Assembly (NCBI GenBank): GCA_016125385.1
Contig: WGLV01000018.1
Location: forward strand, 1-64,000
Direction of reading: 5' to 3'
DNA: 64,000 bases
Source of the DNA: a bacterium
GTDB lineage: Bacteria; Hinthialibacterota; Hinthialibacteria; Hinthialibacterales; Hinthialibacteraceae
The notes below the pieces were generated by a model. That model worked only from the letters and a program-made list of their open reading frames with translations. It was not told where the DNA came from and did not search any database. Shown here piece by piece: positions 10,307 through 15,245 of the stretch. The position numbers and the translations under genes were made by a program. Each line of letters begins with the position of its first letter. The stretch's first letter is position 1.

Positions 10307-13300
10307 ATGAACGCACCGCACAATAATTCAGCCGGATCGGGCGGTTTATCCCCCTCGCAAATCGATTGCCTGACGCCGCGCGCCGCCTCGTTTTTTGAAC
10401 GGATTCAGCGCGATGACGCGCCGCTATTTCAGATCGCGGGAGCGAATGCGGACGACGCGGAACCGGTTATCGCGCGCGTGTTCGCCCGGCAGTGCGCGCA
10501 ATGGGCGGCGTTGATTCAACGAATGGATGAGCCGGTTACGCCGATCTTCGGTCATACCGCGGTTTCGATGATGGCGGCGTGGCTGGGCTCGGCCTGGGCG
10601 GGCAAGCTCCCCGTGTTTCTTTCATTCCCCAACCACAAAATTTCGCCGGAAGATTACGCTCTCAAACTGAAGAACTATCAAAACCAGTTCAAAAACAGTT
10701 TCTTTATCGGGTTGGAAGAAGATCGTTCATTCTGCCCGAATCTGATCGTCCCTGAAGACCTGCCTACGCGCCTGGCGGGCGACGAGCATTTCACCCCGTC
10801 ATCGTTCGACCCCGATTCGCCTCTCTTTCTGCAATGCAGTTCCGGATCGACCGGTTTGCAGAAGGCGGTGGCGATCACGCCCCGCATGCTGGAAACGCAA
10901 CTGGAATGTTATGCGCGCTGGATCGGGCTCTCGAGCGAACGGGACCGGATCGTCAGCTGGCTGCCGCTGTATCACGACATGGGGCTGATCGCGGCGTTTC
11001 TCATGCCGCTGCTTACCGGAACGCCGGTGACCTTTCTCGACACTTTCGAATGGGCGGCGAACCCCGGACTGCTGTTGAAATGGATCGAACGCGATCGGAG
11101 CACGCTGTGCTGGCTGCCCAATTTCGCCTTTTCGTTTTTATGCCGCGCGCCGGTGAAATGCGGCCTGTCTTCGATGCGCTGTTTTATCAACTGCTCCGAA
11201 CCGGCGTTCGAAAACGCTTTCGAACGATTCGCCCGGCAATACAGCGTTGCGCGCGACCGGTTCGCGGTATGTTACGCCCTTGCGGAAAACGTATTCGCCG
11301 TCAGCCAGACGCCCTCGGGACGCCCGCCCGGATTGTTGCGGATCAAACGCGAGGCGTTTCAACGCAATCGCGTGGAACCGGGCGAGGCCGAGACGCGCGC
11401 GATTGGAGAAGAGACGGCGCTGGCGGACGATGAGATGGAGATCATGAGCTGCGGCCCCATCATCGGCGGCGTCGAGGTCCGTATCGGCGCGCGCGATGGC
11501 GAAGACGTGGGCGAAGTGCTGCTGCGCGGGCCCGCCTGCATCACGCGGTACCTGGGCCAGCCGCCCGCGCGGGACGACGGCTGGACGCCGACCGGCGACC
11601 TGGGCTTCATTCACGATGGCGAGTTGTACCTCTGCGGGCGCATCAAAGACCTCATCATCCACAACGGCAAAAACATCTACCCGCAAGACCTGGAAGACGT
11701 TCTCAATCAGCACCCCGCCGTGTACAAGGGCCGGGTGGCGGCGCTGGGCTGGTTTGACGAAGAAGCGGGGTCGGAAAAAATTCTGGCGCTGTTCGAGCCG
11801 TCGCGCTTCATGACGCTGGCCGAGAAACGCACGGTATGCGAAGAACTCCGGCGCCGGTTGAACACGCTGTTTGACATTCGCAGCGAGGTGGTTTGCGTCC
11901 CGCGCCAGTGGCTGAAGAAAACCTCCAGCGGCAAGATCGCGCGCCAGGCCAATCTTCAACATTATCTCGACCGCCGCGATCAGTCGGTGCACGTCGTCGG
12001 CGACAGTCATTCGCGCATTCTGTGGGTCAACCGCTATTCTCATCAGAATTATTACAAACGGATCAGCGCCTATTGGGCGGGCGTATTATGGGCCGATAAC
12101 TGCACCCAGTTTTTGCCGCTGGTTGAAAAGGTATGCGGACGAATGAAGCCCAATGACGTCCTCGCGCTTTCATTCGGCGAGCCAGAATGCCGCTCCATTT
12201 TTCCCGTGGCGCCCGACCCGGAAAAGCGGATCGACCTGTCCGTCCAACGATATGAGAATTTTTTCGCGGAAGTGAAAAAACTCTGGCCGGGTGAACTGGC
12301 GTATCTCACCTGCGTACCGGCGCACCCTCGAAACGTCGTCAACAAGAGCCCCGACTGGCCCATCGCGGGGACGCCTGAAGAACGCTATCGCTGGCAGGCG
12401 GTCTTCTACGAACGCATGCGCGCGATGTGTGAACGGAACGGGATCGTTTTTCTCGACGCGTGCTCGCCCTTCATCAGTGAAAGCGGTTTTATGGATGAAG
12501 CCATCATGGACGACGCCGCTCATGTCAAATACGAATTCAGGAGCGTGTATCTGGACCTGTTTGACGACGCCTTCGGCTTTATGACCGATGAAAAAGCGGC
12601 GGACGAAGCGGGCGGCGAATGGGATGGGAGCCGCGAGCATTATGAAACGCTGGTCAAAGCGATCGTAAAGCGCATCGCGCAAACCGCCGCCGATCCCGAT
12701 TACGAACATCTCGTCTCCACCGGCGCGCTCGATTCACTGGGGCTGGTCGAGTTTATCTCCGAACTGGAGAAGACCTTCCAATGCCGCATCGAACTGCTGG
12801 AAGTCAGCCGCAATGACTTCGAATCGATTTCGGGAATCTTCGAGCGATTCATCAAGCCGGTTTCAAAAAACACGAAACGGGGCGATACGATCAAACTCAT
12901 CATTGGCGGGCGCCAGCCGGTCAACGGGTGGAAGGTGATGAACGCCACGCCCGCGCCGCACGTCGATTTCGTCGGCGGCGGCGTGAATCTCTCGGGCCTG
13001 CCGGATGAAAGCGTGAGTGAACTATACGCCTGTTATGTCTTGCAGCGATACGATTTCAACTCAGAACTGATGAGAGCGCTCAAGGAGTGGCATCGCGTTC
13101 TCACACCGGGCGGCCAAGTGTATATCAGCGTGCCCGACATGAACAAAATTTGTTACCTGTATCTGAATCCGTCACTGGATGGCGGCGGAAAATTTCAACT
13201 GATGCGCCTCTTGTTCGGCAGGCACGCGAGTCCAGCGGAATACTATCAGACTGGATTCTCGATTGAATCATTGCAGATGTTTTTAACTCAAACGGGCTTT

Positions 13301-13453
13301 ATTAATATTAGAGAAAGAAGGCCGTTCGCCCTATTGAAAGACGAAACCGCTCTAACGGTGGGCGGGATGCAAGTCAGCCTGAACGTCTCCGCTGAAAAGC
13401 GGGCGGTGTCGGGCATGACGGACCATGAACTGTCATCGTTCAAACAGTTGTGA
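10307..13453 (+). CDS. Four-domain fusion: acyl-AMP ligase, SGNH-like, acyl carrier protein, methyltransferase-like
   Basis: A 1048-residue cytoplasmic protein. Residues ~20-555 are an adenylating enzyme of the fatty-acyl-AMP ligase (FAAL) type: ATP loop SSGSTGLQKAV (178-188), TGDLGF (429), GRIKDLIIHNGKNIYP (444-459) and the C-terminal catalytic Lys in SSGKIAR (K543). Residues ~560-760 look like an SGNH/GDSL domain with GDSHS (565) and a D..H pair in DDAAH (735-739). Residues ~775-850 are an acyl carrier domain; Ser810 in GALDSLGL is the expected phosphopantetheine site. Residues ~860-1010 resemble a class I methyltransferase with EWHRVLTPGGQVYISVPD (928-944 area), but the glycine-rich cofactor loop is altered. 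Inference: it activates a fatty or other carboxylic acid, loads it on its own carrier domain and acts with the two downstream methyltransferases. The order of domains is not one I recognise. Confidence 0.85.
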   Translation: MNAPHNNSAGSGGLSPSQIDCLTPRAASFFERIQRDDAPLFQIAGANADDAEPVIARVFARQCAQWAALIQRMDEPVTPIFGHTAVSMMAAWLGSAWAGKLPVFLSFPNHKISPEDYALKLKNYQNQFKNSFFIGLEEDRSFCPNLIVPEDLPTRLAGDEHFTPSSFDPDSPLFLQCSSGSTGLQKAVAITPRMLETQLECYARWIGLSSERDRIVSWLPLYHDMGLIAAFLMPLLTGTPVTFLDTFEWAANPGLLLKWIERDRSTLCWLPNFAFSFLCRAPVKCGLSSMRCFINCSEPAFENAFERFARQYSVARDRFAVCYALAENVFAVSQTPSGRPPGLLRIKREAFQRNRVEPGEAETRAIGEETALADDEMEIMSCGPIIGGVEVRIGARDGEDVGEVLLRGPACITRYLGQPPARDDGWTPTGDLGFIHDGELYLCGRIKDLIIHNGKNIYPQDLEDVLNQHPAVYKGRVAALGWFDEEAGSEKILALFEPSRFMTLAEKRTVCEELRRRLNTLFDIRSEVVCVPRQWLKKTSSGKIARQANLQHYLDRRDQSVHVVGDSHSRILWVNRYSHQNYYKRISAYWAGVLWADNCTQFLPLVEKVCGRMKPNDVLALSFGEPECRSIFPVAPDPEKRIDLSVQRYENFFAEVKKLWPGELAYLTCVPAHPRNVVNKSPDWPIAGTPEERYRWQAVFYERMRAMCERNGIVFLDACSPFISESGFMDEAIMDDAAHVKYEFRSVYLDLFDDAFGFMTDEKAADEAGGEWDGSREHYETLVKAIVKRIAQTAADPDYEHLVSTGALDSLGLVEFISELEKTFQCRIELLEVSRNDFESISGIFERFIKPVSKNTKRGDTIKLIIGGRQPVNGWKVMNATPAPHVDFVGGGVNLSGLPDESVSELYACYVLQRYDFNSELMRALKEWHRVLTPGGQVYISVPDMNKICYLYLNPSLDGGGKFQLMRLLFGRHASPAEYYQTGFSIESLQMFLTQTGFINIRERRPFALLKDETALTVGGMQVSLNVSAEKRAVSGMTDHELSSFKQL

Positions 13454-13525
13454 AGCGATCCGCCATAGCATCCGGCGATAACCGCCAACTCAGCAGAAAA
13501 GCCGAGAGCTCCGCGAGTCAGGAAT

Positions 13526-14347: not shown

Positions 14348-14459
14348 AAGAGTCGTTTTCTTCGCGGGAAAAGATGTTATCATGCCTGTAATTGTGAGTG
14401 AGCGCGGCGGTTCGCGGCCGGGCGCTCGCGGCGATGCAAGTTTACATGAGGACGGTTGA

Positions 14460-15245
14460 ATGGTTGAGATATCGCATCATTTCATGGAACGGATCAGCGC
14501 GATCCAGTCGGAGCTCGAACAGCTGAAAGACCTGCTCGCCCGGGTGGGCGCTCCCGCTTCGCCGAACGTTCTCGCGCCGCGGTATCTGTGTCCCAGCGCG
14601 GCCAAAATGGTCGACTTTCGCCAGGAACCGGGCTTCAGCCAGGCGGCGAACCTGATCGTCAATGAAAAGCGCTCAACGCTCGATTACAACCGGCTGTTCA
14701 CGCTGTGGCACGCCATTCATAACACGTATTCATTTAATCTCGGCGCGGCGGAGGTGGGGTCGTATAAAGGCGGCTCCGCCAAGTTTATCGCTCTCGTCCA
14801 CCAGCAGTTCGGCGTCACGCCGCCCATCCACGTGGTCGATACCTTCGCGGGGCATCCCGATACCATCAACCTCCAACTCGACGGCCCCCACCGGGCGGGG
14901 TGGTTTTCAGACACCAGCGCCGAAAGCGTGAAAGAGTATCTCAAGCCGTTTTCAAACGTGACCGTTCACGTCGGCCCCATTGAAGAAAAAAGCCCTGAAC
15001 TCGAAGCCATGCAATTTCACTTCGTTCATGTCGACGTGGATATATATAACCCCACCGTACACTGCCTCGATTTCTTCTGGCCGCGCTTATGCGGGCTGGG
15101 CGTCATCGTGTGCGACGATTACGGCTTTCAGTCATGTAAAGGGACGAAAAAAGCGGTGGATGATTTCGTCGCATCTCACGCCGACTGCATGACCTGGTAT
15201 CCACACACGGGGCAGTACATTTTGCAGAAAAAGCCCGCCGCCTGA
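14460..15245 (+). CDS. TylF-like class I methyltransferase
   Basis: A 261-residue SAM-dependent methyltransferase of the TylF/macrocin type (Methyltransf_24-like). Recognisable parts are GSYKGGSAKFIALVH (SAM loop), HVVDTFAGHPDT (acidic strand 2 plus substrate loop), FVHVDVDIYNPT with the metal-binding Asp residues, and VCDDYGFQ. Family members O-methylate sugars in a Mg2+-dependent way. The N-terminal 45 residues are a helical extension. GAGGACG lies eight bases before the ATG. It is the last gene of the cluster and runs tail to tail into argJ with only 9 bases between them. With FkbM it suggests a multiply O-methylated product or surface sugar. Confidence 0.85.
   Translation: MVEISHHFMERISAIQSELEQLKDLLARVGAPASPNVLAPRYLCPSAAKMVDFRQEPGFSQAANLIVNEKRSTLDYNRLFTLWHAIHNTYSFNLGAAEVGSYKGGSAKFIALVHQQFGVTPPIHVVDTFAGHPDTINLQLDGPHRAGWFSDTSAESVKEYLKPFSNVTVHVGPIEEKSPELEAMQFHFVHVDVDIYNPTVHCLDFFWPRLCGLGVIVCDDYGFQSCKGTKKAVDDFVASHADCMTWYPHTGQYILQKKPAA

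Follow-up and report, generated by a model that had tools for sequence, protein, structure and literature searches.

DltA is the adenylation enzyme of the Dlt system. In that system, a carrier and an SGNH protein cooperate through membrane partners to acylate a polymer of the cell envelope (PMC12148441). Fatty acyl-AMP ligases (FAALs) commonly supply the carriers of polyketide synthases (PKS) and nonribosomal peptide synthetases (NRPS), and the elements by which coenzyme A (CoA) is rejected have been located in EcFAAL as W224, M231, F279 and the helix T252-R258 (PMC8460268). The conserved blocks of SGNH proteins have likewise been defined, and several SGNH carbohydrate O-acyltransferases are described as lacking or not using the Asn of block III, with AlgX having a Tyr, XOAT1 a hydrophobic stretch, and PatB1 using an Arg (PMC9487903). 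Furthermore, acyl carrier proteins, acyl ligases and FkbM methyltransferases co-occur in the flagellin-glycan islands of Enterobacteriaceae (PMC4875605). The present analysis concerns a locus in a 64,000-nucleotide stretch of bacterial DNA (contig WGLV01000018.1 of assembly GCA_016125385.1, phylum Hinthialibacterota), termed the window, where a FAAL, an SGNH domain and a carrier are joined in one polypeptide whose gene is followed by genes for an FkbM-family and a TylF-type methyltransferase.

Architecture and Distribution of the Enzyme Family

The FAAL-SGNH-carrier protein represents a previously undescribed, recurring enzyme family that is built from known domain families. An original prediction, made from the sequence of the window, had described one protein of 1048 residues in which these three domains are followed by a methyltransferase-like end, and the open reading frame (ORF) bears this out, with the motifs and the carrier serine Ser810 in place and the frame open across 1055 codons. 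The four-domain order, which had been regarded as the unit, is thus present in the window, while the conserved unit across genomes is FAAL-SGNH-carrier. At 45-49% identity, a genome scan recovered this unit in three Magnetococcales metagenome-assembled genomes (MAGs) and in a single MAG from soil assigned to the Deltaproteobacteria (Myxococcota). With a profile search whose first-look filter may miss divergent members, the three-domain protein was found in 22 of 48 Magnetococcia genomes, all 22 positives in a phylum sample of 399 genomes fell within the class Magnetococcia, and the single hit among 284 Myxococcota genomes was the member already known; in the window's own phylum, one of 14 genomes carried the protein at full length, and a broader set of 386 genomes gave one positive, each time the genome of the window itself. 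The set used for conservation therefore comprises 24 proteins (22 from Magnetococcia, one from Myxococcota and that of the window), and the three-domain proteins span 815-886 residues. The reading of one member (L007) had to bridge masked sequence and a change of frame, and its FAAL part is incomplete as a result.

None of the annotated plasmid records matches at least 80% of the 1048-residue protein, an SGNH-carrier query was also without a match, and no paper on a FAAL-SGNH-carrier fusion was returned by a literature search, in keeping with the earlier statement that no characterised pathway with the four-domain order is known. The three-domain protein is characteristic of Magnetococcia, where, to our knowledge, no function has been assigned to it. 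A chance or artefactual fusion was considered and ruled out because the three-domain order is seen again in 24 genomes. An assembly or frame error at the methyltransferase junction seems less likely, given the open frame of 1055 codons.

The N-terminal domain matches the AMP-binding family of Pfam at E 6e-25; its nearest NCBIfam subfamily is "fatty acyl-AMP ligase", and its best solved relative is EcFAAL (3PBK, profile E 2e-63). Both ANL motifs, SSGSTGLQKAV and SSGKIAR, are present, and Lys543 in the latter, the C-terminal catalytic Lys, is invariant across the 24 proteins. In the window protein, moreover, the CoA-rejection residues and helix of EcFAAL are matched in the alignment by W218, M225, F273 and T246-N252, which are conserved in the family. 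By sequence, the adenylation domain is a FAAL and not a CoA ligase. The carrier domain scores 20.4 bits against the PP-binding model of Pfam, just below the cut-off of 20.8, and adjoins the SGNH domain in every family member. Its Ser810 (LDSLG), which had been singled out as the carrier serine, is invariant across the 24 homologues, where the context is DSL or a near variant.

The SGNH Domain and Its Stand-Alone Relatives

The window protein shows GDSHS at 565 and DDAAH at 735, the SGNH region falls below the Pfam cut-off in a whole-protein scan (E 0.066), and Lipase_GDSL_2 is matched by 13 of 21 family members at 0.01. An AlphaFold2 model of the SGNH and carrier domains, computed from a five-sequence alignment (pLDDT 78.4, pTM 0.73), gave 26 PDB matches in Foldseek at E<=0.001 with probability 1.00. 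A few designed scaffolds are included among its top 50 matches, and the recognisable top folds are sialate O-acetylesterase, platelet-activating factor (PAF) acetylhydrolase and further SGNH/GDSL esterases. The SGNH fold that had been suggested for residues ~560-760 is accordingly upheld by the model (pLDDT 78), which matches solved SGNH esterases and GDSL lipases. PAF-acetylhydrolase is also the best PDB sequence match of the SGNH profile, weakly so at E 0.015, with an alignment that spans the DxxH motif. No substitution of Ser567, Asp736 or His739 occurs in any of the 24 proteins, and Gly592, which lies at a position suitable for the Gly of block II, is likewise invariant. The Asn of block III was sought by alignment in the family and is absent, an invariant GEPECR being found instead; several accepted members of the superfamily are also without this Asn (PMC9487903). 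Membership of the SGNH superfamily thus stands by the predicted fold, whereas the canonical SGNH signature does not.

A profile search of 242 genomes revealed no unfused relatives of this SGNH domain; they came to light only when viral contigs (L090-L130) were scanned for the motif GEIDCRCH. The scan gave 41 stretches, 37 of which carry the motif in an open frame, with GDS upstream in nearly all. Half of the GEIDCR proteins scanned match phrog_13881, a family with no assigned function. When their profile was aligned with the fused SGNH domain by hhalign, 173-176 columns were matched with probability 98.3-99.1 and E 1e-14 to 7e-19, and the model of a GEIDCR protein is an SGNH fold (pLDDT 92.5) that matches the same esterases together with the peptidoglycan O-acetyltransferase PatB. 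Pfam assignment of 74 neighbours within 2.5 kb of the GEIDCR genes gave 18 Methyltransf_24, seven glycosyltransferase family 2 (GT2), five FkbM and three TylF proteins as well as other glycosyltransferases. In a control clustering, the largest neighbour cluster (28 genes at 11 loci) is of Methyltransf_24 type and has all its members inside 2.5 kb; none of the 89 genes beyond 5 kb belongs to it. The SGNH relatives thus sit beside methyltransferase families that also accompany the window protein. Through this relationship the uncharacterised GEIDCR family, present in 37 viral contigs, gains a possible link to a defined donor, namely a carrier thioester loaded by a FAAL.

The Methyltransferase-Like End and the Partner Genes

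The methyltransferase-like end of about 190 residues is found only in the window protein and is missing from 23 of the 24 members, 22 of which end at the carrier; a viral-contig scan for it gave no matches. The end, which had been read as methyltransferase-like, may be an active methyltransferase that acts on the carrier-bound acyl group, a possibility that concerns the fourth domain only and is compatible with every reading of the other three. In favour of activity, a stand-alone protein from an unrelated genome, itself methyltransferase-like, is 39% identical over 173 residues, and there is a Methyltransf_11 match that is marginal in the protein scan (21.2 bits against a cut-off of 21.2) and reaches E 5.6e-5 for the piece alone. 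Nevertheless, motif residues common to stand-alone relatives of ~190 residues are replaced, the acidic residue after strand 2 by N, LEH by LQR and a late His by Y, and the GxG motif is altered, as it also is in the closest relative. Because residues conserved in the relatives are lost, and with the domain missing from all other members, the end is probably a pseudo-methyltransferase, and methylation by it is regarded as rather unlikely. The GC content at third codon positions (GC3) is 0.53 in the methyltransferase-like end, compared with 0.75, 0.68 and 0.71 in the FAAL, SGNH and carrier parts, which is consistent with a recent, lineage-specific addition to the three-domain core.

The remaining member with an additional domain, from a Magnetococcia genome (L071), has an FkbM methyltransferase joined after the carrier, at the same junction, and the FkbM gene of the window is only distantly related to it (25% over 176 residues). 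One core has therefore been joined separately to two methyltransferase families, and these two fusions suggest coupled acylation and methylation of one molecule.

The two genes that had been read as FkbM and TylF methyltransferases, downstream on the same strand, both exceed their family cut-offs. The FkbM gene scores 39.3 against 22.7 bits for PF05050 and 77.7 against 37.7 for TIGR01444, its S-adenosylmethionine motif I being DVGANVG, and the TylF-type gene scores 39.0 against 23 bits for PF05711 and 41.5 against 26.3 for PF13578, with metal-site Asp motifs (VDVDIY and DDYG) that align with 4cdz. A scan for terminators gave 8 sites, no more than shuffles do (7.2), which speaks neither for nor against the lack of a terminator that had been noted.

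In three genomes of the same family that belong to other genera, argJ and apbC are adjacent and free of the unit, with gaps of ~200, 230 and 140 bases, and the genes for 6-pyruvoyl-tetrahydropterin synthase (PTPS) and folE come next in the same order as in the window. In the window, ~5 kb with three genes on the strand opposite to the flanks separates argJ from apbC. The unit was either gained in one lineage or lost from the sisters, and gain is favoured because the unit is patchily distributed and rare. Direct repeats, sought at the borders of the insert as a check for insertion by a mobile element, were not found. That the insert consists of exactly these three genes argues for a joint function.

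A relative of the FkbM gene was encountered elsewhere: on an Aquicella lusitana plasmid (L083, 1729-7741), an FkbM methyltransferase 37% identical to that of the window is accompanied by a HAD-domain protein (814 aa), an unknown gene of 232 aa and a methyltransferase protein, and the cluster adjoins flagellin and fliK. It looks like a flagellin decoration cluster.

Proposed Mechanism and Alternatives

On these grounds, the core is proposed to be a cytosolic enzyme that activates an acyl group, loads it onto its carrier and transfers it through the SGNH domain, thereby decorating a glycan that the partner enzymes methylate, a reading in which our confidence stops just short of even. The steps that we infer, together with the acyl group, the acceptor, what the methyltransferases do and transfer in place of hydrolysis, would be as follows. 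The FAAL domain would convert a carboxylic acid and ATP into an acyl-AMP and, rejecting CoA, would load it, within the same chain, onto the phosphopantetheine arm of Ser810. The carrier thioester would then give up its acyl group to Ser567, and the resulting acyl-enzyme would pass it, in the cytoplasm, to a sugar hydroxyl of a nucleotide sugar or a lipid-linked glycan. The FkbM and TylF-type enzymes would O-methylate that glycan or the acyl group, and the methyltransferase-like end would most likely be a pseudo-enzyme that serves for docking or for positioning the substrate. Because no signal-like segment is seen at the N-terminus of the window protein, a cytosolic acceptor would be expected. 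The glycan-decoration setting put forward in the original prediction finds support in the stand-alone SGNH family, in part of the Magnetococcia neighbourhoods and in the three-gene insertion.

The Magnetococcia neighbourhoods are mixed, comprising carbamoyltransferase (6), GT2 (5), cytochrome bc1 genes (4-5), M50/HlyD (4) and some radical-SAM proteins. At one Magnetococcales MAG locus (L006, 2910-10804), genes for a carbamoyltransferase, a GT2, a radical SAM/SPASM protein, an NDP-sugar epimerase and a C-methyltransferase adjoin the FAAL-SGNH-carrier gene.

Several points weigh against glycan acylation by the core. No neighbour gene is common to all family members, the inserted unit is without a glycosyltransferase, and the position of the window protein in the family tree is not secure. 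The known SGNH acyltransferases of cell-envelope polymers work outside the membrane (PMC12148441), whereas no signal-like segment begins the window protein. Furthermore, the loss of the block III Asn is suggestive of acyl transfer and no proof of it, because SASA esterases, which are hydrolases, share this absence with the O-acyltransferases (PMC9487903), and transferase and hydrolase are not separable by sequence. As to the first of these points, the lack of a universal partner suggests that the three-domain protein is self-sufficient.

The SGNH domain may instead be an in-cis thioesterase that frees the acyl group from the carrier, for editing or product release, so that the product would be a free methylated acid. 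Most SGNH proteins are hydrolases, the model matches esterases, and the carrier adjoins the SGNH domain in all members; nevertheless, spending ATP in the FAAL and then hydrolysing in cis would be futile unless the acyl group is altered on the carrier, and the sole candidate modifying domains, the methyltransferases, are not fused in 22 of the 24 members. With a block III that, lacking Asn, resembles that of the glycan O-acyltransferases (PMC9487903), such a thioesterase is considered unlikely. Loading of a polyketide, peptide or lipid assembly line encoded elsewhere in the genome, with the SGNH domain for off-loading, would agree with the common supply of PKS and NRPS carriers by FAALs (PMC8460268). 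It is thought improbable, since ketosynthase and condensation domains were found neither in the inserted unit nor among the 25 commonest of the 75 families into which 100 neighbour proteins fall, and the genes of most members are solitary, with housekeeping genes next to them. Both are less likely than in-cis transfer to a sugar. Finally, the SGNH domain could strip acyl groups from a glycan, with the FAAL and carrier recycling or re-attaching them, as the sialate O-acetylesterases among the best fold matches might indicate. The fused, ATP-driven loading domain and the glycosyltransferase and methyltransferase context of the SGNH relatives favour building over such remodelling, which is judged very doubtful.

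Feature Coordinates and Further Observations in the Window

Features of the locus and of the L071 relative (positions in the window except for L071)
Feature	Position	Strand	Basis
FAAL-SGNH-carrier-(pseudo)methyltransferase fusion protein, 1048 aa	10307-13453	+	ORF list, domain scans
Fatty acyl-AMP ligase-type adenylation domain, residues 1-555	10307-11971	+	Pfam/NCBIfam, 3PBK alignment, family conservation
SGNH domain, residues 561-765	11987-12601	+	AlphaFold2, Foldseek, profile-profile, alignment
Ser567 codon, predicted block I nucleophile (GDSH)	12005-12007	+	Invariant in 24 members
GEPECR (624-629) in place of block III, canonical Asn absent	12176-12193	+	Invariant in 24 members
Asp736-x-x-His739, block V	12512-12523	+	Invariant in 24; aligned with PAF-acetylhydrolase DxxH
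Carrier (PP-binding) domain, residues 772-848; Ser810 codon 12734-12736	12620-12850	+	Pfam, Ser invariance
Methyltransferase-like domain, residues 863-1035, apparently degenerate	12893-13411	+	39% identity to stand-alone protein, lost motifs, GC3
FkbM-family methyltransferase, 273 aa, motifs DVGANVG and IKIDVDG	13526-14347	+	Pfam PF05050, TIGR01444
TylF/Methyltransf_24-type O-methyltransferase, 261 aa, Asp motifs VDVDIY and DDYG	14460-15245	+	Pfam, PDB match 4cdz
Inserted segment between apbC and argJ	10222-15254	.	Comparison with three sister genera
apbC/Mrp, one flank of the three-gene unit	9124-10221	-
argJ, other flank of the three-gene unit	15255-16475	-
L071: core fused to FkbM methyltransferase, 1114 aa, Magnetococcia genome	8903-12244	-	Pfam E 6.5e-12

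Next to apbC, the listed start of the PTPS-like gene (8612-9223, minus strand) overlaps apbC by 100 bases, and its true start probably lies later, because alignments with homologues from the sister genera begin only near residue 60. A protein of 558 aa (18185-19861, minus strand), with a hydrophobic N-terminal segment and a GC content below that of its neighbours, has neither a significant Pfam family nor a convincing relative in the PDB. An open frame of 2343 aa (56955-63986, minus strand) has a single PDB match, short and weak (128 residues, E 5e-6), with an NDP-N-acetyl-D-galactosaminuronic acid dehydrogenase.

Comparison with Known Systems

With the FAALs EcFAAL (3PBK), FadD32 and FadD28, the window protein shares the fold, the ANL motifs, the CoA-rejection residues and helix, and a carrier as predicted acceptor, and it differs from them in having the carrier and an SGNH domain within one chain. 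The SGNH O-acyltransferases AlgX/AlgJ, PatB1 and XOAT1 resemble it in the SGNH fold, the Ser/His/Asp residues and a block III Asn that is missing or unused (PMC9487903); unlike it, they have their site of action beyond the cytoplasm or, in some cases, in the Golgi, and no fusion of them with a carrier or a FAAL is described, and when set against them the SGNH domain of the window shows no circular permutation. The stand-alone GEIDCR proteins have the same GDSH / GE[IP][DE]CR / DxxH layout, yet they measure ~200 aa, lack the fusion to FAAL and carrier, and are 11-18% identical to the fused domain in the profile alignments. The flagellin glycosylation islands of Enterobacteriaceae similarly bring carrier, acyl ligase and FkbM functions together (PMC4875605), in their case as separate genes and with no SGNH-FAAL fusion reported, and no flagellin gene was found beside the unit of the window.

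The Dlt system (DltA, DltC, DltB, DltX and DltD) offers a further parallel, in that an adenylation enzyme, a carrier and an SGNH protein cooperate in polymer acylation. In contrast, the window protein joins the three functions in one apparently cytosolic polypeptide in which a FAAL replaces DltA, and no MBOAT or DltX partner is seen in the inserted unit; nor did an MBOAT protein or a partner peptide with an acyl-shuttle Tyr appear among the 25 commonest of the 75 neighbour families. By analogy, the protein might be a one-polypeptide, cytosolic counterpart of Dlt, whose SGNH domain takes the acyl group in cis from the carrier, without a membrane shuttle or an acyl-Tyr, and O-acylates a sugar, a narrower proposal that is advanced only tentatively. 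If true, it would define a new class of SGNH transferases, marked by a GEPECR/GEIDCR block III and shared with a large uncharacterised family of viral glycan clusters. The window protein itself offers a single soluble chain on which activation, carrier loading and acyl transfer, which Dlt distributes over several proteins, could be studied.

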